From Clostridia bacterium (GTDB lineage: Bacteria > Bacillota > Clostridia > Christensenellales > Borkfalkiaceae): a stretch of DNA of 52,799 nucleotides. The stretch spans positions 1 through 52,799 of the forward strand of contig JAGAOR010000012.1 of NCBI GenBank assembly GCA_017623605.1, written 5' to 3'. The position numbers were made by a program, and so were the translations under genes. Of the stretch, positions 133 to 9,870 are shown piece after piece. The notes under the pieces were generated by a model that did no database searches, was not told the origin of the DNA, and saw only the letters and a list, made by a program, of their open reading frames with translations. Each line of letters begins with the position of its first letter. Within the stretch, counting starts at the first letter, position 1.

Positions 133-603
133 TTATTCTAAACCGCTAAAATCAATCGCGCGACAAATTTTCGCAATCTTCGCCTTTTCGATTTTCAGCG
201 TTTCTTTTTTATCTAAAATTTCCACACAATGCTCGTCGTAGGATACGAGCGTGCCTTCAAAAAACTTCTTGCCTTTCATAGGCGCGTACAGCTTCACTTC
301 TACTTTTTCACCCTTGGACTTTTCAAAATCCCGCGCGGTTTTGAGCGGTCTGTCCAAACCGGGGCTGGATACGTTGAGCGTATACGGTGCACCAAGCGTC
401 GGATCGACCTCGTCTAAAATCGGATCAATCGCGCGGTGAAAACGTTCACACGCGTTAAGATCGACGCCGCCCTCCATATCAATATACACGGTGAGCGCGG
501 GTTCTTTGCCCTGCTTGAATTCCACTTCCACGATCTCAATTTGCATTTCGTCCGCGATCGGTTGTAAGGCGTTTTGAATTTCTTCTACGGGTTTTATCTT
601 CAA
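133..603 (-). CDS. rimP: Ribosome maturation factor RimP
   Basis: This 156-residue protein matches the RimP family in length and layout: an N-terminal alpha/beta domain (about 1-85, with the family-typical VSSPGLDRPL at the domain boundary) and a C-terminal SH3-like domain (about 90-156). RimP assists late maturation of the 30S subunit in the cytoplasm. The ATG at 603 is preceded by a GGGGGAAG-type ribosome binding site. It is first in an operon with nusA. Its leader, about 70 bases long, contains a 14-bp hairpin at 622-655 and follows a good SigA promoter. Confidence 0.95.
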   Translation of the reverse strand: MKIKPVEEIQNALQPIADEMQIEIVEVEFKQGKEPALTVYIDMEGGVDLNACERFHRAIDPILDEVDPTLGAPYTLNVSSPGLDRPLKTARDFEKSKGEKVEVKLYAPMKGKKFFEGTLVSYDEHCVEILDKKETLKIEKAKIAKICRAIDFSGLE

Positions 604-621
604 AGCTTCCCCCTTATAACG

Positions 622-655
622 TTATTGAGAGCGGATTTAATTCCGCTCTCAATAA
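622..655 (-). promoter_or_regulatory. 14-bp perfect hairpin in the rimP leader
   Basis: The arms 622-635 and 642-655 are perfect reverse complements around a 6-base loop. The hairpin lies between the predicted start site (about 674) and the rimP start codon, ending about 18 bases before the ATG. Neither strand has a T-run after it, so an intrinsic terminator is unlikely. A leader structure affecting mRNA stability, translation or regulation is the better reading, but the function is not known. Confidence 0.6.
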
Positions 656-680
656 TCAAAGTCAATTATTAAGTATCTTT

Positions 681-709
681 ATTATACCATTATCTTGAAC
701 AAAACGCAA
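681..709 (-). promoter_or_regulatory. SigA-type promoter of rimP-nusA
   Basis: On the minus strand the -35 is TTGCGT (704-709), the spacer is 17 bases and the -10 is a perfect TATAAT (681-686). The predicted start is near 674. Confidence 0.8.
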
Positions 710-768
710 GCGTTTTACACGGGGTTTTTGAAATTTCTTGTTCAATAAAAATCAATTAGAAAATAAAA

Positions 769-820
769 TTAAAACGCTCCCACTCGTTTCATTTTGATAG
801 CTCCTTTATCTGCTAAAAGC
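769..820 (-). pseudogene. Vestige of a third lipoprotein copy (leader plus start codon only)
   Basis: Bases 797-820 are identical (24 of 24) to the ribosome-binding leader at 1535-1558 that precedes the lipoprotein gene at 829-1530. Both leaders are the same distance (36 bases) after the preceding stop codon. Here the leader ends in an ATG at 792 that opens only a seven-residue reading frame, MKRVGAF. The simplest reading is that the tandem array once had a further copy whose body was deleted. Inference from the duplicated leader; no remaining coding homology was seen. Confidence 0.45.
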
Positions 821-828
821 AAAGAACT

Positions 829-1530
829 TTAATAAAGACAGTTAAAAAAGCCGTTATGATAACAAGGCATAAGACGCTTTTGCTCGTCTTCGTCTATAAT
901 GCGCTGTTGAAACCGCCGCGCATTGCCGCTAAACTCTACGCCGCATTCCTCCCGATTTAAATTAGTCGCATTAAAAATCTGCAATAATCCGTCCGTTGTT
1001 TGCACAGCGCATACGTAATTGGAGCAATATTTTTTCGCATTGCTATAACCACTTAACTCATACGGGTTCCGCCCGTCGATAAACAACGCGATTTGCTCGG
1101 ATTTTTCGGCGTATCCAGAATAAAGCTTAACGCGCACGTAATACGTATCGTCCTCGATAAAGCCGATAAAATGATTATATTTCGTCGTATAGTTTTTTTC
1201 AACGCTTTTTCCGCTCTCGTCTTTTATCGTATAGTCCCCCTCAAACTCGTCCACATATTCAAGCTGTACCATAAAATATTCGGGATCGTTATCGTAAAAC
1301 GCGTATAAAATTTCCACTTCTATATTCGAAATTTCACCCGTGAGGATTTCTTCGAAAAATTTTTCTTGCGTCCGCTTTTCAATGCGTTCGATATGCTCCT
1401 CGATCGTATATTCCGTTCGAAATTCAGGGTGCGTAAATTCACCGTCCAGCTTACCACAACCGCAAAAAGAAGAAAGAACTACCGTAACCGCACAAGCATA
1501 ATAAAAAATTTTTCCGTAAATATTTTTCAT
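829..1530 (-). CDS. Putative lipoprotein, tandem paralogue 2
   Basis: The protein has 233 residues. The N-terminus is a basic and hydrophobic signal segment ending in SSFCGCG, so it is probably a lipoprotein with Cys at about position 25-27, although the lipobox is imperfect. The body is acidic and rich in aromatic residues. It shares long stretches with the neighbour at 1567-2292, for example THPEF-TEYTIEEHIERIEK near residue 35 and DGRNPYELSGYSNAKKYC near 155. I do not recognise a family. It is the third gene of a unit headed by a secreted cysteine protease, so a role linked to that protease (inhibitor, immunity or surface partner) is possible but unproven. The start at 1530 has AAAGGAG at a normal distance. 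Confidence 0.75.
   Translation of the reverse strand: MKNIYGKIFYYACAVTVVLSSFCGCGKLDGEFTHPEFRTEYTIEEHIERIEKRTQEKFFEEILTGEISNIEVEILYAFYDNDPEYFMVQLEYVDEFEGDYTIKDESGKSVEKNYTTKYNHFIGFIEDDTYYVRVKLYSGYAEKSEQIALFIDGRNPYELSGYSNAKKYCSNYVCAVQTTDGLLQIFNATNLNREECGVEFSGNARRFQQRIIDEDEQKRLMPCYHNGFFNCLY
1262..1435 (-). repeat. Duplicated 174-base coding segment, copy A
   Basis: Aligns without gaps to 2012-2185 at an offset of exactly 750 bases. By eye there are only five mismatches (about 97% identity). It marks a recent tandem duplication of the lipoprotein gene. Confidence 0.9.
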
Positions 1531-1566
1531 TTTTATAGCTCCTTTATCTGCTAAAAGCGAAAAAAT

Positions 1567-2292
1567 TTAATAAACAGATTTAGACACGGCAAAGCGCCCT
1601 CCTGTCGGATGGCATTTCATCAATTCCTTTTGTTCTTCTTCGGGAATAATACGCTGATCAAACCGCTCTTCAAACCCGTCGAATTCTACGCCGCTGTCGT
1701 GGAGATTACGCGCATTAAAAATCTGCAACATTTCCCCGTCAACCTCTACAGCGCAAATCTCATAACCGCAGTATTTTTTTGCATTGCTATAACCGCTTAA
1801 CTCATACGGATTTCGCCCGTCCACAAAAACGTCTCCGTCATAAAGCCCCACGTAAGCAGGTAAGCGCGAATAATATTCGTCATTTTCTATAAACCCGATA
1901 AAATGCTTATATCTGGTTTGATATTCGACAATTCTTCCATATCCCCCATACCACCCATCGCCAAGCTTTTCATACATCCAGCTTTCCCCTTCAAAATCTT
2001 CCGTATATCGTAGCTGCACCATAAAATATTCGGGATCGTTATCGTGAAACGCGTATAAAATTTCCACTTCTATATCCGAAATTTTACCCGTGAGGATTTC
2101 TTCGAAAAATTTTTCTTGCGTCCGCTTTTCAATGCGTTCGATATGCTCCTCGATCGTATATTCCGTTTGAAATTCAGGGTGCGTATACTTAGGCAGACGA
2201 CCAATAATACGGTCTTCTTCACAGGCGGAAAAATTACAAAAACACAAAAAGCCTACTGAAATGAAAGAAATCAACCGTTTCATTTTCTTCAT
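1567..2292 (-). CDS. Putative lipoprotein, tandem paralogue 1
   Basis: The protein has 241 residues. It starts MKKMKRLISFISVGFLCFCN, with a clear lipobox FSAC, so lipidation at Cys24 and outer-face membrane anchoring are likely. It is a paralogue of the protein at 829-1530. The central part is nearly identical, while the segment between about residues 95 and 135 (with GDGWYGGYG) and the C-terminus diverge. The start codon lies only seven bases after the G10 tract at the end of the protease gene, which stands where a ribosome binding site should be. A second ATG at 2283 is possible. Family and function are unknown. Confidence 0.75.
   Translation of the reverse strand: MKKMKRLISFISVGFLCFCNFSACEEDRIIGRLPKYTHPEFQTEYTIEEHIERIEKRTQEKFFEEILTGKISDIEVEILYAFHDNDPEYFMVQLRYTEDFEGESWMYEKLGDGWYGGYGRIVEYQTRYKHFIGFIENDEYYSRLPAYVGLYDGDVFVDGRNPYELSGYSNAKKYCGYEICAVEVDGEMLQIFNARNLHDSGVEFDGFEERFDQRIIPEEEQKELMKCHPTGGRFAVSKSVY
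2012..2185 (-). repeat. Duplicated 174-base coding segment, copy B
   Basis: Partner of 1262-1435, with five mismatches over 174 aligned bases and no gaps. It covers the conserved core of the two lipoproteins. Confidence 0.9.
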
Positions 2293-2295
2293 AAT

Positions 2296-3966
2296 TCAGC
2301 CCCCCCCCCAAAAAAAATCTTCTAATCCACATTGAAAACAACTGCCATTTTTGAAGAAATGGCTTTCGTAGCCTCGATAATTACACTTTTCTTCACTGCA
2401 CCTTCTCATATGTTTATCATACGCATTTCTTTCATAGTATATTTTATGAAAAGAAAGGCTCTCCGCTCCACAGGTACACTTCACCATATGATAAAGGTCG
2501 CCATTGTATGGTCCGCCATAAATCTGCTCAATTATATTATACGTGTGTTTCTCATTATAACCGCTTCTTTTGCAAACAGAGCAAGCAACGACGTGAGAAT
2601 CGTTTGCATTTTGAATATAATCACTATGTGTGTGATTTGTTTGAAAAGAAATATAACCCAGCACCCAATCCATATTGAGCCACACGCTGTCTTTCTCAGG
2701 TCCCCAACCGAAATTCGCTATAATTCCTTGCAATTGCGTTCTATCACATAGAATAGTTTGATACCCGAAAGCAACAACCGCGTGTCCAAAAACAGAATAA
2801 ACACCATTCTCTTCTTCACAAACTTCTATCAAGCCTATAACAGGTCTATCCGCGTCGATTTCATTTATTATCATTGTTCTAGCCGTAGCTGGATTTGTGG
2901 AATAATTTATTGTGATTTGATCTTTAATAGTTTGCGCATAGTTATTTAAGTACCGATTCGTACCGTTAATCATATCCTCTACGGTCGCCCCACTTTTATC
3001 CGGATCTATATATTCTAAAAGCTTTTCATAAAAAGTAGTCGTCGCATCATTTTCATTGTGTCCATAAGTTGCCATCATTAATCTGGGATCATATGGATTA
3101 GAACGCAATGCTATTATCTCTTCTTCCGTCATAAGAGACTCATCATAATCCAAAAACTTTTCCGTAGCCGTATTGGCGGGAATAATCCTCCCGTCCTTAC
3201 TCCAATTATTATAGGAAAGCAATATATGCGTCGCTACCGTAACACACGTTCCATCTCCTATATTGTCTGGATATGTAGGAATATCTAAAAAATATTTCTT
3301 GTCTCTAATATATGTTCGAGAAAGAACAGAATACCTATTTACGTCCAAAATCTCGTCTATCATTGGAGCTGGAAGAGATGAAGAACCCAAAGTAGAATTC
3401 CCTGGCGTTGATAAAATTTCGTCAACCGAAGAATTTGCATATAAAGAAACATCGTTCTCTATTACCGTTTTTTCTTCCGATTTTTCCTTTTCTTTTCTTT
3501 GTTTTCTGTTTTCTTTAATTTTTTCCTTTACCGCTTTTGCCACGTCGTGCATTTGCTCTTTTTCAAATTTTTCGCCCGTGTATATATGCTTGACTTTATC
3601 TTTTTCTTTTTGATAATAATTCGTCGGTCCCGCATAATATATTTCTACGCTTTCTTGTCCGTACGGCGAAGCATTTGTATCGCTATATTCTATCAATTCC
3701 ATTCCCTCACGCTCGAAAATAGCATAACCACCCACACTACTGTTGACTATGATATAATCGTTCTCTTCATCCAAGCCTTGCAGGTAGTCTGCTTGAAACA
3801 TTTGCTGTTCCCACTCTCCGTCTTCGACGTTCGCCTGGAAAATTTTCCGCGTAATTTCTTCCGCCGCAGACAACTCGGTGTCAATGTTCATTGATCCCAA
3901 AAACGTCATCGACGATACCGTGATTGCTATGGTCAACCCTAATGCAACTGCTCTTTTTTTCTTCAT
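2296..3966 (-). CDS. Secreted papain-like cysteine protease with Cys/His-rich C-terminal repeats
   Basis: The protein has 556 residues. An N-terminal signal peptide (about 1-35) is followed by a possible pro-region (about 40-110, with YIIVNSSVGGYAIFE) and a charged Lys/Glu linker (about 120-170). The peptidase domain (about 220-440) has the expected triad: Cys241 in GDGTCVTVATH, His395 in GHAVVAFGY and Asn418 in NFGWG. This layout resembles clan CA secreted proteases of the streptopain/staphopain/C39-like type. The C-terminal 110 residues hold three loose repeats with paired Cys and His (C462/C465, C497/C499, C523/C528) and a final CFQC (543/546), probably metal-binding or wall-associated. 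It heads a unit with two lipoproteins. A strong promoter and AGGAGGT site precede the ATG. The exact family is uncertain. Confidence 0.75.
   Translation of the reverse strand: MKKKRAVALGLTIAITVSSMTFLGSMNIDTELSAAEEITRKIFQANVEDGEWEQQMFQADYLQGLDEENDYIIVNSSVGGYAIFEREGMELIEYSDTNASPYGQESVEIYYAGPTNYYQKEKDKVKHIYTGEKFEKEQMHDVAKAVKEKIKENRKQRKEKEKSEEKTVIENDVSLYANSSVDEILSTPGNSTLGSSSLPAPMIDEILDVNRYSVLSRTYIRDKKYFLDIPTYPDNIGDGTCVTVATHILLSYNNWSKDGRIIPANTATEKFLDYDESLMTEEEIIALRSNPYDPRLMMATYGHNENDATTTFYEKLLEYIDPDKSGATVEDMINGTNRYLNNYAQTIKDQITINYSTNPATARTMIINEIDADRPVIGLIEVCEEENGVYSVFGHAVVAFGYQTILCDRTQLQGIIANFGWGPEKDSVWLNMDWVLGYISFQTNHTHSDYIQNANDSHVVACSVCKRSGYNEKHTYNIIEQIYGGPYNGDLYHMVKCTCGAESLSFHKIYYERNAYDKHMRRCSEEKCNYRGYESHFFKNGSCFQCGLEDFFWGGG
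2300..2317 (-). repeat. T8-G10 homopolymer tract at a gene junction
   Basis: On the minus strand the end of the protease gene reads eight T followed by ten G, then CTGAATT and the ATG of the next gene. The tract encodes the last residues FFWGGG and also occupies the ribosome-binding position of the next gene. Changes in tract length would alter both the protease C-terminus and the distance or strength of the downstream initiation site. Tracts like this are slippage-prone, and are also prone to sequencing error. Confidence 0.7.
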
Positions 3967-3996
3967 AGTAAACCACCTCCTGTTTTTTGTACTTTT

Positions 3997-4025
3997 AGCA
4001 TATCAAAAAGCAGTTTTTCTGTCAA
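3997..4025 (-). promoter_or_regulatory. SigA-type promoter of the protease-lipoprotein unit
   Basis: TTGACA (4020-4025), 17-base spacer and TATGCT (3997-4002). The -35 is a perfect match to consensus. An AGGAGGT ribosome binding site follows near 3974-3980. Confidence 0.85.
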
Positions 4026-4106
4026 GTATGTGAAACGTCGATTTTTCAAAAAAGTTGTTTTATGCGATAAATCAACAAAAAGCAGTCGTTTTTGCTATCT
4101 AAAAAC

Positions 4107-4130
4107 CAAAAATAAAAGAGCCGACTGCTC
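4107..4130 (-). terminator. Possible weak terminator after the GH2 gene
   Basis: On the minus strand GAGC-AGTCG-GCTC is followed directly by TTTTATTTTT. The stem is only 4 bp. An alternative longer pairing joins 4081-4088 with 4122-4129 across a long loop. Support is weak. Confidence 0.35.
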
Positions 4131-4149
4131 AAAAATTCGTTGTTTTATG

Positions 4150-5900
4150 TTAATTTCGTTCAATTTCCTCCTCAATCTTTTCCGCTTCCGTTTGAATTTC
4201 AGCGTTGATTTTCGCCATTTCACCTATCGGCACTTTCACGATCTTCCGATCGTAGGTTGTAAGCCCGTTGATCTCTTCTTCCACGTCAGAAACCTGCGTG
4301 TAGATCGCGCCGCAAAGCCCCTTTCTAATCAACGGCTTTAACTTCTTTAAATAAAGCGTTTTCAAGGCTTCGAGCAAATCACTATCCGTTTTAAATTTCT
4401 TATACCCGAATTCCTTTTCCTGATCGAACACGTGCCCGTCGATTTTGCGCGAATATCCACCGAACTCACTCAACACCACCGCGCGGCGGTCCTTTGGAAC
4501 TTTCAGCGGCGTATAATACGTATGCAAGCTTTTAAGCTCCGTTTTTCCCACGCCTTGATCGTGCCAACCGCTCACGGAATCGATAATGCGAGAATTGTCC
4601 TTGCTGCGGACGTATTCCGTCCAAAACGCCGAATCGAATTGCCCCCAGCCCTCGTTAAAAAGTACCCACACGCCAATACACGTACAGTTGCCCAACTGCG
4701 CAAGCGTTTCGTCTACCATTTCGGCAAATTCCGCTCTTCCCGCGCCGTTTTCGCGAGCGAAATATTTATAGTCGTCGTCGCGGTGTTTAACGCCTAAAAA
4801 GGGAAACGCCGCGATATGCGTAAATTTATAATCGCTGCCGCCGTTCACGAAATCCTGCCACACGACAAGCCCAAGCCGATCGCAATGATAATACCACCGC
4901 ATAGGCTCGATTTTAATATGTTTTCTAACGGTGTTAAAGCCCATAGCTTTGAGCATTTTCAATTCGTCTATCGCCGCCTTATCGCTTGGGTACGTAAGCA
5001 TACCGTCCGACCAATACCCTTGATCCAAAACGCCGTTGAAAAAATACGGCTTTCCGTTAAGCGTTAAGCGCATCTTCCCGTTTTTATCCCGCGTTTTTCC
5101 AAACGAACGAACGCCGAAATACGATTGCAATTAACGCCCGCTTTATTGGTAATTGTGAAATCGTAGAGCTTGGGATTTTCAGGCGACCAAAGCTCGAAAT
5201 CGTAAGAAAGCGTGATTTCTTTTTTATATTTCTCACGCAAAATGACCTTACCCTGATCAAATACGACGACTTCCCGTTCCTCCTCCTTTTCCCCAACGAT
5301 CCGCACTGTTTTTTGAAAGGCGTCGGTGAAAATTTTCGGCGTTTCGATATAATCTTTTGGCATACGCTCTATCCAAACCGTTTGCCAAATCCCGCTTTGC
5401 GGCGTATACCAAATTCCGCCACGCTTTAAGCTTTGTTTTCCGAACGCCCCGCCGTTATACAGCGCGTTATCTTCACAAACGACTTTAATTTCGTTTTCAC
5501 CAACCTTTAACATCGCCTGTATATCCATAGAAAAAGCCGTGTAGCCGCCCTTATGCGCGCCTACTTTTTCACCGTTCACGAACACCTCGCATTCGCTATC
5601 CACCGCCCCGAAATGTAAACGAACGATTCCGTCGAGCCAGCCCTCGTGCACTTCCACCACGCGGGTGTACACGAGCTTTTCACCCTTTCCAAGGGCAAAA
5701 CCCGCCGCCACGCCGCTATTGAGCGTTTCAGGGGAAAAAGGCACGATTATTTTCCCCTCGAACGAACGCTCGCCGCCTATGCCGAGCTTGTAAAAATCCC
5801 ATTCGCCGTTCAAGCATTCGCCGTTTTCCCGCATTGCTTGCGGACACGGGTGCTCGAAATGTGGAATTTTCCCGATTTCGTAAGCCGTTTTTAATCGCAT
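4150..5900 (-). pseudogene. Glycoside hydrolase family 2 (beta-galactosidase/beta-glucuronidase type), split by a frameshift
   Basis: Two overlapping reading frames together make one GH2 enzyme of about 590 residues. The upstream frame (5900 to 5064) carries the jelly-roll sugar-binding domain (LNGEWDF near residue 30) and the immunoglobulin-like domain. The downstream frame (5130 to 4150) carries the TIM barrel with the acid/base Glu in VLFNEGWGQ and the nucleophile Glu in VLSEFGGYS. The frame changes near 5125-5135, where AGVN in the first frame should run into LQSYFGVRSFG in the second; one base appears missing. Both catalytic residues are intact, so this is either a very recent inactivation or an assembly error. 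The start overlaps the MFS transporter by 10 bases, suggesting uptake and hydrolysis of one glycoside. The substrate cannot be told. Confidence 0.85.
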
Positions 5901-7228
5901 TGCTTTTCTCCTTTTTTATTTTTCGCTTTCACGAGCAAGGGAATCACCGCGAACATCAACGTTGCGGCAATCGCACCCGCAAGAAAAATTTCAGGCGCGG
6001 GAATATACTGCGTCGTCATAACGTCCGCACTTGATAAATCAGGCAAAGGAATTGCCGCCGCCTTGTTAATAGCGTTGCCGATCATAGGTCCGAAAATCAT
6101 AGGTAACAAAACGCTGAAAATCATACGCACACCCTGCAACTTCCCAGCGTTCGCTTCGGGCGTATAATCGCGTGTAAGCGCACCGCAAAGCGCGGAAACG
6201 AATATGTAGCCCGTGATCATCACAAAGCCCGCAAGCCCGAACAGGGCAAGCGTGAGAATTTTACTTTCAAAATGGAAAACGTACATTCCGAAAAGGCCCA
6301 AAGCAAATACCGCCGCCGCGATATATAAAAGCTTCGCCTTATCGTTCTTATCTGCAAGCCGCGTCAAATATAGATTGATCGCCGCGCCGAGTACGATTGC
6401 AAGCCCGAACACAACGCTATATTCTAAAACGGTAAAGCTCAAATACGTTTTCATATAAATAATCAAATAGGGCATAAAAATCTGACACGCTATGCCGTAA
6501 ACGCCCGTGATTACGAGCGTTAAATAGAGCGTGGGATTGCTTTTTACCACGCACGGCTTGAAACCGTAGATAATATCTTTGAGCGTACCTTTCCTTTCGA
6601 GAGCAGGACTATCTTTCACGGTAAATATACCGATCGCGCCGCACGCGGCAATCACCGCGCCAAGCCCGAAAAAGAGAGCCTGATATCCGATCATAGAAAC
6701 CAAAATCCCAAATCCACCCGCCACGATTAGCATAGCGATAAGCGGTAAAATGGAAAGCACACCCTCCACCTTGCCTCGGTACTCCTCACGGGTGTTATCC
6801 GTTACCCAAGCATTGAAAGCCGCGTCGTTCGCCGTCGAACCGAACACGGTCATTACGCAATCGAGCACGATCACGAGGGCAAGCGCCGCCGTAATTGCCG
6901 CCGCTTCTTCCATATGAAAGATCGCCGCGATATTATCGGTGGAAAGAAGCCCGAAAAGCGCAACCGTTACACCCCAAATTAAATATCCGTAGGAAATGAA
7001 CCGCCTACGGTTTCCCAGCTTATCCGAAAGCGTACCCGCAACGAGCGTCGTTACCGTCGCGGTGATCCCCGAAAGCTGCACCATAAGCGTTACTGCGTCC
7101 AAATTGGGTGAAATCGTTTCGAATACGAACAAATTAAAATACATATTCTCCACCGACCAAGCGATCTGCCCTATGATCCCGAATACGATCAAAATCCACC
7201 AATTTTGCTTTCCGAACGTACTTTTCAT
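5891..7228 (-). CDS. MFS transporter, probably for a sugar or glycoside
   Basis: The protein has 445 residues and about twelve hydrophobic helices. The major-facilitator loop 2-3 signature appears as GTLSDKLGNRRRF around residue 65, and the halves are separated by a charged loop (about 200-225, ALERKGTLKD). It acts in the cytoplasmic membrane. It overlaps the GH2 gene by 10 bases and lies 21 bases after the PolC-like gene. The link to a glycosidase suggests a glycoside or disaccharide substrate, which is inference. The ribosome binding region is a run of eight G (7234-7241) just upstream of the ATG. Confidence 0.8.
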   Translation of the reverse strand: MKSTFGKQNWWILIVFGIIGQIAWSVENMYFNLFVFETISPNLDAVTLMVQLSGITATVTTLVAGTLSDKLGNRRRFISYGYLIWGVTVALFGLLSTDNIAAIFHMEEAAAITAALALVIVLDCVMTVFGSTANDAAFNAWVTDNTREEYRGKVEGVLSILPLIAMLIVAGGFGILVSMIGYQALFFGLGAVIAACGAIGIFTVKDSPALERKGTLKDIIYGFKPCVVKSNPTLYLTLVITGVYGIACQIFMPYLIIYMKTYLSFTVLEYSVVFGLAIVLGAAINLYLTRLADKNDKAKLLYIAAAVFALGLFGMYVFHFESKILTLALFGLAGFVMITGYIFVSALCGALTRDYTPEANAGKLQGVRMIFSVLLPMIFGPMIGNAINKAAAIPLPDLSSADVMTTQYIPAPEIFLAGAIAATLMFAVIPLLVKAKNKKGEKQCD

Positions 7229-7249: not shown

Positions 7250-8824
7250 TTAAAGCGGCAATTTGCCGCGTTTTTTCATAAACTCGATAAAAATTTTCGC
7301 CGTTACGCACGCGTCGTCGAACGCGCGGTGGTGGTTGAACGTAAAGCCGTAATAATCCGCGACGGTATTGAGCTTGTAATTTGCGAGCTCACCGCGGAGT
7401 AGTTCCTGCGCGAGCGTAAGCGTATCGAATTGCCTGTTGTCGATCATATACCCGTTTTGTTCGGCGTAATAACGCACGAAATTCAAATCGAAATTTACGT
7501 TATGTCCAACGAGATACGCGCCTTCGATAAACTTAAAGAAATCAGCGATCGTTTTATCAATCGTAGGCGCGCCGATAAGGTCGGCATCGGTAATCCCCGT
7601 TAGATCTATAATCTCTTTGGAAAGCCGCTCTTCGCAAGCCACGAACGTGGAAAATTTTTCCTTAATTTCTCCGCCGACAAGCTTCACCGCGCCAATCTCG
7701 ATAATTTTATCCATTTTCCCCATAGCGGGATTATTGTTTAAACCCGTCGTTTCCAAATCGAATACGACGAACGCGTTATTTTTCAAATCGTCGGGCTTTT
7801 CCAACGTATCAAAAAATCCCGCCTGGGTGTAATCGACGTAATTTTCGGGAAACACCGTGTGGTAATATTTCGGCACGGGTTTTCCCTTTCTTGCCTTTGG
7901 AACGAAATTTTCGGGCGGTGCGCCAAAATTGATTTTCGCCGCCTTAAACGAACGATAGCCGTTGAATTCCTCGTTTTGTCCCGTAATAACGATCTTGTCC
8001 CCGATCTTTAATTCACGCACTTTTTCAACCGTCGCTTTCTTGGGAAAATAGGTCGTACGGAGCGTGCCCGTACCGTCGGAAAGGGTAATCACGAAACGAG
8101 ATTTTTGTACGTCCTCGCCCGTTTTTTCATTGTGCTTCGTATATTCCTTTTCTTCGATATAAGTAAGCGAACCGCAAACGGCTAAAACACCCTCCTCGTT
8201 CCCGTGATCGGCGATATAGGTTGCATTTTTGGGCAACCCCTCCGCGCCGTCGATCTTTACGAAATCGCAAATCTCAAAGCGGCGTATTTCTTTGACGGCT
8301 TCCTCCTCCTGCGTTTCGGGAATCTCGTTTAGGAGTTCGTCGCTCGGCTCTTCCTTTTCTACGATTCGAACCGTGCCGTAGAACGTGCCGCAATATCCGC
8401 TTTGCAAATACGCGCTCACCTCGTCTAAAATTTTCCCCGAAGTGAACAGCGACTGTTCCCCCGAAGCAATATCAAAGCAGAAATTCGCCCCGCTTGACAG
8501 CATATCTACGTGTATGCTTTTCTCGTCTAAAAACGCCGCGGCGGCGGGAAATTTCGAGCTCACGAAATCGTAGATCCTGCGCTTTACAATTTCCTCGTCG
8601 GGCACGCGCTTGACGATCCTTGTCTTTGCCCGAAAGTCCGCAGGCAAATATTTCCCCGAAATGCCGCAAGCCTCCGCTTCTTCCCGAGCCGTATACGCCT
8701 TATCCGTTATGAGTAAAAATTCGGCAATCCGATCGCGCTTGCTTACGGTAATGCTTTTAAGCAACGCGTTTTGCAAGCCCGCGATCGCGCGTATTTCCCT
8801 CAAATATTCGTCTAATCTGTTCAT
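7250..8824 (-). CDS. PolC N-terminal/OB/exonuclease protein without polymerase domain
   Basis: The protein has 524 residues. Residues 1-190 resemble the PolC N-terminal domains and 210-300 an OB fold (GVLAVCGSLTYIEE, ITLSDGTGTLRTTYF). Residues 350-515 form a DEDDh 3'-5' exonuclease: motif I FDLETTG with D356/E358, motif II HNVNFD with D446, motif III with H499 and D504. Full PolC is about 1,400 residues, with the exonuclease inside a PHP domain and followed by the polymerase. Here both are absent: the OB fold runs through a short linker into the exonuclease, and the frame ends 21 bases before the next gene. The gene overlaps ispG (ATGA), the position where many Clostridia carry polC. It is probably a processing or proofreading nuclease; a separate polymerase elsewhere is inferred. 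Confidence 0.85.
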   Translation of the reverse strand: MNRLDEYLREIRAIAGLQNALLKSITVSKRDRIAEFLLITDKAYTAREEAEACGISGKYLPADFRAKTRIVKRVPDEEIVKRRIYDFVSSKFPAAAAFLDEKSIHVDMLSSGANFCFDIASGEQSLFTSGKILDEVSAYLQSGYCGTFYGTVRIVEKEEPSDELLNEIPETQEEEAVKEIRRFEICDFVKIDGAEGLPKNATYIADHGNEEGVLAVCGSLTYIEEKEYTKHNEKTGEDVQKSRFVITLSDGTGTLRTTYFPKKATVEKVRELKIGDKIVITGQNEEFNGYRSFKAAKINFGAPPENFVPKARKGKPVPKYYHTVFPENYVDYTQAGFFDTLEKPDDLKNNAFVVFDLETTGLNNNPAMGKMDKIIEIGAVKLVGGEIKEKFSTFVACEERLSKEIIDLTGITDADLIGAPTIDKTIADFFKFIEGAYLVGHNVNFDLNFVRYYAEQNGYMIDNRQFDTLTLAQELLRGELANYKLNTVADYYGFTFNHHRAFDDACVTAKIFIEFMKKRGKLPL

Positions 8825-9870
8825 TGCAATAACAACCTTATTTCCTTGAAAAATTCCTCTTCCGCCTCTTCCGCTTTTACCTTTCTAACGGGCTCGCCCT
8901 TTTTGAAGATCACACAGCTTCCCACGCCGCCCGCAATGCCGAGATCAGCGTCCTTCGCTTCGCCCGGTCCGTTGACGACACACCCCATAACGGCAAGCTT
9001 CGCTTTTTTACGGTAGGGTTTGACGAACTCGGTTACCTTTTCGGCAAGTTTCATACTCTCCCACGCGCAACGCCCGCAGGTAGGGCAGGATACCACCTCC
9101 ACGAAATCCTCGTCCAAGCCGCACGCACGCAAAATTTGCCTTGCCGCGTACACCTCTTTCACGGGATCGTCGGTGAGCGAAACGCGGATCGTATCGCCAA
9201 TACCGTTTACGAGTAAGCTCCCAATCCCCACCGCGCTTTTGACAAGCCCCGCCTCGTACGTACCCGCCTCCGTAACGCCGAGATGCAAAGGATAATCGGT
9301 TTTTTGTGATAACAGGGTATACGCGCGAACGGTTAAAGGCACGTCCGAAGCTTTCACGGAAATAGCAATATCGTACACGCCGAATTTTTCCAATAGTCCG
9401 ACGTTATAGAGCGCGCTTTCAACAAGTGCAAATTCACTTCTGCCGTATTTTTGCAAAAACTGTTTTTCTATGCTGCCCGTATTTGCACCCACGCGCACGG
9501 GCACGCCGTGACGTTTCACGCAATCGGCTACGTACTTAATTTCCTTTTCCCCTCCGATATTCCCGGGGTTGATGCGCACTTTGCTCGCGCCGTTTTCCAT
9601 CGCGAGCACGGCGAGCTTGGGCGAAAAATGAACGTCCGCCACGATCGGCAGACGGACTTTTTCTTTCAGTCGATTTAAAGCGAGCGCGTCGTTTTCGTCC
9701 GCAATCGCCACGCGTACGATCTCACAGCCTGCGTCACCCAGCGCAGTGATCTGCGCCGCCGTTTTTTCCACGTCCGCTGTTTTCGTCGTCGTCATTGATT
9801 GTATTTTTACACTCGTATTGCCGCCGATCAAAACGCCGCCGACGTTGATACGTTTTGTTTGATTTCTCAT
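8821..9870 (-). CDS. ispG: 4-hydroxy-3-methylbut-2-en-1-yl diphosphate synthase (GcpE/IspG)
   Basis: The 349-residue protein carries the family landmarks of IspG: VGGVLIGG and SVKIQSMTTT at the start, a TIM barrel with VADVHFSPKLA, and a C-terminal [4Fe-4S] domain with cysteines in SCPTCGRCAWES and MGCVVNGPGEA. It converts methylerythritol cyclodiphosphate to HMBDP, the penultimate step of the MEP isoprenoid pathway. The ATG directly follows the nrdR stop codon with no gap, and its own stop overlaps the PolC-like gene by ATGA, so the three are likely translationally coupled. Confidence 0.97.
   Translation of the reverse strand: MRNQTKRINVGGVLIGGNTSVKIQSMTTTKTADVEKTAAQITALGDAGCEIVRVAIADENDALALNRLKEKVRLPIVADVHFSPKLAVLAMENGASKVRINPGNIGGEKEIKYVADCVKRHGVPVRVGANTGSIEKQFLQKYGRSEFALVESALYNVGLLEKFGVYDIAISVKASDVPLTVRAYTLLSQKTDYPLHLGVTEAGTYEAGLVKSAVGIGSLLVNGIGDTIRVSLTDDPVKEVYAARQILRACGLDEDFVEVVSCPTCGRCAWESMKLAEKVTEFVKPYRKKAKLAVMGCVVNGPGEAKDADLGIAGGVGSCVIFKKGEPVRKVKAEEAEEEFFKEIRLLLQ

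Follow-up and report, generated by a model that had tools for sequence, protein, structure and literature searches.

The locus analysed here raises the question of what is left to do for a gene that stands at the position of polC and encodes a protein without a polymerase. It lies in the window, i.e. the whole analysed stretch of 52,799 nucleotides. An earlier note on this DNA had described it as a PolC homologue in the ispG-linked position, with a complete DEDDh site, without PHP and polymerase domains, and separated by 21 bases from the next gene, and all of these observations hold. ispG is found directly upstream, and the next downstream gene ends at 7228, which leaves the 21 bases. In the 524-residue protein Pfam recognizes RNase_T at residues 353-512 (3.7e-36) and, below threshold, an OB match at residues 243-292; neither a PHP nor a polymerase domain is found in it. 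None of the five DEDDh residues varies across 15 aligned proteins or among 19 proteins of the genus, both sets including the window protein. Behind the exonuclease domain, which stops at residue 518, just six residues follow. The predicted structure of the whole protein has a pTM of 0.47, a low confidence for the placing of the domains relative to each other, and the mean pLDDT across residues 331-340 is 53. The features are collected in Table 1.

Table 1. Coordinates of the short polC-derived gene, its parts and its conserved neighbours in the window, and the related proteins with a dead active site.
Feature	Residues	Position in window	Strand	Remarks
Short PolC-derived gene	524 aa	7250..8824	(-)	NTD-OB-linker-DEDDh exonuclease; ATG start
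N-terminal domain (NTD)	1-157	8354..8824	(-)	two alpha-beta-beta-alpha-beta units, the second KH type II-like; homologue of the PolC NTD
OB domain	205-303	7916..8212	(-)	hhalign to PolC OB
Linker	304-348	7781..7915	(-)	replaces PHP N-lobe; region of the motif predicted to be flexible
Putative beta-clamp binding motif QAGFF	334-338	7811..7825	(-)	
DEDDh 3'-5' exonuclease domain	349-518	7271..7780	(-)	D356 E358 D446 H499 D504
ispG		8821..9870	(-)	conserved neighbour, upstream of short form and full polC alike
rimP		133..603	(-)	conserved downstream neighbour, displaced here by ~6.6 kb of other genes
30 dead-site short proteins at the polC locus				L094, L133-L135, L149, L244-L247, L250-L261, L263-L268, L271, L274, L275

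The distance to rimP is unusual in this window, as the gap between the two genes is 0.1-1.4 kb in three congeners. The intervening ~6.6 kb (604-7228) contain an MFS gene, a glycoside hydrolase family 2 (GH2) gene, an ORF of 556 aa and two similar lipoprotein-like ORFs; Pfam gives no match for the latter three. Between 4150 and 5900 the GH2 gene is apparently split into overlapping minus-strand ORFs in different frames, with the N-terminal domains in 5064-5900 and the TIM barrel in 4150-5130, which could reflect a frameshift, a pseudogene or an assembly error.

Studying the single domains reveals their relation to PolC. In profile comparisons with hhalign the NTD matches the PolC NTD with 97.7% (E 1.5e-12; the control, NTD against OB, gives 0.4%), and the OB domain matches the PolC OB with 99.3% (E 1e-20). 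The top NCBIfam match of the window protein is PolC, reached by the exonuclease part alone (146.6 bits, the cut-off being 873). When a profile of the short proteins is run on full PolCs it matches NTD and OB, skips about 75 residues of the PHP N-lobe and then matches the exonuclease (in L096, for example, residues 8-306 and 382-547), which agrees with the PHP loss claimed before. In fold searches 9qpc_A alone covers both OB and exonuclease among the best 50 matches listed (rmsd 18.0), no tau domain V appears among the best 50 listed for the NTD, and with the exonuclease DinG was matched as well as PolC. The earlier note had named a DinG- or RNase T-like family without a PolC N-domain match as an outcome that would speak against it; this identity is ruled out, because NTD and OB match PolC.

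In an unrooted tree with rough bootstrap a single branch (95/97) sets off all 47 short exonucleases whose site is intact, with the PolC exonucleases next to them; seven rows were left out of this tree, namely five dead short proteins, the degenerate PolC L101 and one distant exonuclease. The gene order tells the same story. Of 51 short-form loci 46 have ispG no more than 2.1 kb upstream, all five misses belonging to family f26, and 41 have rimP downstream; full PolC loci of the same order have the same two neighbours in five out of six cases. From the shared exonuclease branch together with the ispG-rimP neighbourhood we infer that the short gene and polC are one and the same gene, most simply truncated once. 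By homology, then, the short protein is what remained of an ancestral PolC, its front half, after PHP and polymerase were lost.

The earlier note had asked whether relatives share the domain loss, and they do. Within the genus the short form is present in all 36 other genomes searched, in one of them divided over two contigs and in another with a stop inside the match. Our sample of the order comprises 247 genomes, 165 in 15 short-form families and 82 in PolC families, and the short form occurs in 165 of the 165. In 135 of these the match is at 1e-80 or better (frames of 438-759 aa); the 30 weaker matches, all of which were read, consist of eight from f16, 19 from f19 and three from f29 (genus g70). 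In the rest of the phylum sample none of 347 genomes carries the short form at 1e-75, a cut-off that would miss dead-site forms, and among 293 genomes of the class the best match outside the order (6.7e-73) lies in a 1456-aa frame. Judged by these matches, the domain-reduced polC is a clade-wide form in a large group of gut bacteria. One genome of a PolC-bearing family, G071 (f11; L232, L269), has neither PolC nor the short form and is possibly an independent loss.

Which polymerase replicates these genomes? In total five of 39 selected genomes have a PolC above the TIGR01405 cut-off, and all five are PolC-side controls: none of the 33 genomes from short-form families is positive, while five of the six controls are, the sixth being G071. 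Of the 165 genomes of short-form families 155 have one PF07733 match, six have two and four have none; in the 82 genomes of PolC families there are three matches in 73, two in five, four in three and one in one, whereby each of two PolCs scanned holds two such stretches. A single C-family polymerase is thus present in 155 of the 165 genomes, and it is a DnaE in 21 out of 21 read. The genome of the window, which is 81% complete, also shows one DnaE, and the full-length polC elsewhere in the genome that the earlier note had asked to search for was not found. A full PolC hidden in its unassembled part is unlikely, as relatives at 90-100% completeness show none. Replication by a DnaE-type enzyme with the nuclease of PolC retained, one of two readings proposed in that note, is therefore the one that the genomes bear out.

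These DnaEs form one group in a quick tree (SH-aLRT 100; 21 DnaEs of short-form families, the ORFs chosen by similarity and one short DnaE, L220, left out). By a published scheme (PMC12926913) they should be of the clostridial DnaE1 kind. The nine residues of the PHP site (HHDHEHCDH) are intact in 21 of 21, drawn from 13 of the 15 families, and the clamp motif Qxx[LIMF]F is at the expected place in 19; the clamp gene itself was found in 14 of 14 genomes tested. Two proofreading sites may consequently act in these cells, the PHP site of DnaE in cis and the short protein in trans. At one place in the polymerase core these DnaEs (e.g. the one at L083 3026-6628) have 13-42 residues, compared to 8-10 in DnaEs partnered with a PolC. 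The palm motif is PDFD in all 21, and since the PolC-partnered enzymes have mostly PDID and in some cases PDFD it is not diagnostic.

The linker of about 45 residues at the position of the PHP N-lobe contains a conserved P-x(7)-Q-x-x-[LFIM]-[FL]. Proteins of replication and of repair bind the clamp through motifs with the consensus QL[S/D]LF or QxxLF (PMC12309361). The motif column holds Q in 44 of 52 short proteins and the fifth motif position F in 37, and Q334 and F338 are invariant across the 19 proteins of the genus. A strict Qxx[LIMF]F was found within the linker of 32 of the 52 proteins; in 1000 rounds of shuffling the linkers this number averages 0.84 and never exceeds 4, and outside the linker the strict motif occurs 0.1 times per protein. 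Each of the 14 families in which an intact site occurs has at least one member with Q and a hydrophobic fifth residue. Eight of the 47 intact-site proteins lack the Q, and five of these eight retain [LV]F. Not one of 26 full PolCs has the strict motif at the linker position, and 24 of them have a clamp-like motif, by a looser pattern, at the C-terminus. At the place of the lost PHP lobe stands a predicted flexible linker, in which the conserved putative beta-clamp motif occurs far above chance.

Selection on the gene was estimated from three close pairs of the window's genus. dN/dS is 0.07-0.12 for the whole gene and, taken by part, 0.035-0.065 for the exonuclease, 0.060-0.084 for the linker, 0.035-0.188 for OB and 0.11-0.17 for the NTD; all of these values are rough, as dS is high. 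The DEDDh site is intact in 47 of the 52 proteins first read, which are 47 of 47 strong matches, and it is lost in 30 of the 30 weak ones: eight of f16, 19 of 21 in f19 and three of f29. In f16 a short form with a dead site is found near ispG in eight out of eight genomes, and the dead-site loci checked have ispG in 25 and rimP in 21 of 25 cases. Within genus g19 the first D and E are replaced by H and N in 13 of 15 proteins. As f19 and f29 also include members with an intact site, catalysis was probably lost at least three times. The gene was retained nevertheless, thus the protein outlives its catalytic site, and its docking or its binding of DNA is probably useful independently of catalysis.

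Leaving the linker aside, seven dead-site proteins of g19 share 39-75% identity, with dS mostly saturated. In a comparison with five dead proteins the identity of the exonuclease drops from 0.434 between live proteins to 0.260 between live and dead ones, that of OB from 0.259 to 0.247, and the NTD, like OB, has barely diverged from that of the intact proteins. A looser pattern of the motif is present in 17 of the 30 dead-site linkers (14 of 19 in f19, three of three in f29, none of eight in f16); the eight f16 linkers have other Q-hydrophobic stretches instead.

Genomes with a dead site more often have a second exonuclease-like match (20 of 30, against 30 of 135 others; Fisher 5e-6, ignoring kinship), although such a match could be a fragment or an exonuclease of any kind, DinG among them. 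In a smaller comparison, with a cut-off chosen afterwards, extra hits were found in five of eight genomes then classed as dead or without the form and in two of 26 others (Fisher 0.0035). Small stand-alone exonucleases of DEDDh type, about 185-200 aa long and of at least two groups (L236-L241), are possible replacements. Because the extra exonucleases belong to at least two groups and the genomes within a family share their history, we take these counts as a hint at a replacement exonuclease.

Descent from PolC, the loss of its polymerase, the near-universal single C-family polymerase, the state of the active site and the motif are read from sequence, and it is from these that we infer clamp binding, proofreading activity and a partnership with DnaE. 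The reading we prefer, with a probability of roughly 0.55, is that of a clamp-docked accessory subunit of the lone DnaE, which would normally proofread in trans and would have a non-catalytic role besides. The linker motif would dock the short protein on the beta clamp, the OB domain would probably hold single-stranded or frayed DNA, and the NTD would probably still dock on the clamp loader, as has been proposed for PolC (PMC3919608). In most lineages the DEDDh site would remove mispaired 3' ends left by DnaE, itself equipped with an intact PHP site. Three groups keep the protein with a dead nuclease, docking or DNA binding probably being useful there without catalysis. To proofreading in trans points the gained clamp-like motif, to the additional non-catalytic role the conservation of the dead-site proteins; against the proposal speak the 30 lost DEDDh sites, the intact-site proteins without the Q, the f16 linkers without the motif, genome G071 with neither form, the lack of an epsilon-like tail, the equally good fold match to DinG, and the PHP site of DnaE, which may proofread already. 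We are more tentative, and put it somewhat below an even chance, about the stronger form, in which the front half of PolC has become a new kind of replisome subunit, docked on both clamp and clamp loader, which at first proofread in trans for a lone DnaE and in three groups (f16, the majority of f19, part of f29) lives on as a dead but retained scaffold.

A protein which is mainly a structural part of the replisome, i.e. an adaptor for clamp, clamp loader and single strands with the nuclease secondary, is an unlikely but serious alternative. The dead-site proteins of f16, f19 and f29 raise it and lower the pure-nuclease readings: the gene is retained in 30 of 30 such genomes, with ispG at every locus checked, the identity outside the linker is kept in the seven g19 proteins, the exonuclease diverges while OB is nearly steady, and second exonuclease-like matches are commoner in these genomes. 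It fits poorly with the intact DEDDh site in each of the 47 strong matches and with the exonuclease dN, which is the lowest among the domains in all three close pairs. A little less likely still is an exonuclease tethered to the clamp for repair (mismatch excision, end trimming or primer removal) and not for replicative proofreading. That repair proteins use clamp motifs too (PMC12309361), that the PHP site of DnaE is intact and that the short protein has no epsilon-like tail would all suit such an enzyme; its origin in the built-in proofreading domain of PolC and the kept NTD, the proposed clamp-loader dock (PMC3919608), would not, and retention without the nuclease fits neither proofreading nor repair as the sole role.

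Decay of a functionless PolC relic would account for the active sites lost in f16, in most of f19 and in part of f29, but we regard it as improbable given a gene present in all 165 genomes, the low dN/dS in the window's genus and the gain of a motif. The other reading of the earlier note, a split PolC in which the short protein would pair with a polymerase half from another locus, has next to no probability. PolCs that skip the exonuclease do exist in other Clostridia (our own scan; PMC3919608), but for the genomes tested this reading is refuted by the absence of a PolC above the cut-off in all 33, by the lone C-family polymerase in 155 of 165 and by the DnaE found wherever it was read.

The clade can be regarded as a natural experiment: the polymerase of PolC could be dropped, while none of the genomes sampled from the 15 families is without the NTD, OB and exonuclease regions, to which a clamp-like motif was added, and the roles of the PolC front half are testable here by itself. 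For PolC inhibitors such as ibezapolstat these bacteria would also offer no target. A trial report on this drug describes polC as confined to low-G+C Bacillota and the spectrum as narrower than expected for some Bacillota subtaxa (PMC13003532).

Comparing the short form with known systems, DinG has a helicase domain after its exonuclease, which is missing here, and the short form carries the PolC NTD and OB instead. The PolCs without an exonuclease represent the reverse domain loss in the same class, with the polymerase kept, and are almost confined to Clostridia and Negativicutes (PMC3919608). In our scan of other orders PolC is present in 32 of 33 genomes, some of them picked for the absence of an exonuclease match, and in 13 of the 32 the match skips the exonuclease columns (G285, G288, G294, G303, G318, G321, G332, G341, G346, G348, G355, G390, G392). 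The order of the short form also contains a full-length PolC, L101 (G048, f13), whose exonuclease site is degenerate.

Some Clostridia likewise replicate with a single DnaE1 (Timinskas et al., PMC3919608), and the sections of that paper on them describe no PolC remnant; the division of replication between PolC and DnaE1 in Clostridia was posed there as an open question. A 2026 census (PMC12926913) assigned stand-alone DnaQs by homology to known ones or by models alone, and parts of its main text do not mention a short PolC-derived protein. Nor did a literature search of limited coverage find a paper on one. DnaE1-only Clostridia are therefore already known, and the PolC-derived, epsilon-like subunit appears to be new.

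With PolC the short form has in common the NTD, the OB domain, the DEDDh exonuclease and the ispG-rimP position; it differs by the lack of PHP, polymerase and C-terminal clamp motif and by the new motif in the linker. The other relevant model is DnaQ (epsilon) of E. coli, also a free-standing DEDDh exonuclease with a clamp motif beside a lone DnaE. Epsilon has its clamp motif and a C-terminal polymerase-binding tail. When the short form is measured against it, the complete DEDDh site is found in the window protein and 46 others of the 52, and is missing from the 30 dead-site relatives; the window protein has the putative clamp motif QAGFF. The short form differs from epsilon in that its motif stands before and not after the exonuclease, that NTD and OB are extra, that the protein ends too soon after the exonuclease domain for a polymerase-binding tail, and that its origin is separate. 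If the stronger form of our reading is true, an epsilon-like subunit would have been invented a second time and independently, by cutting up a replicase.
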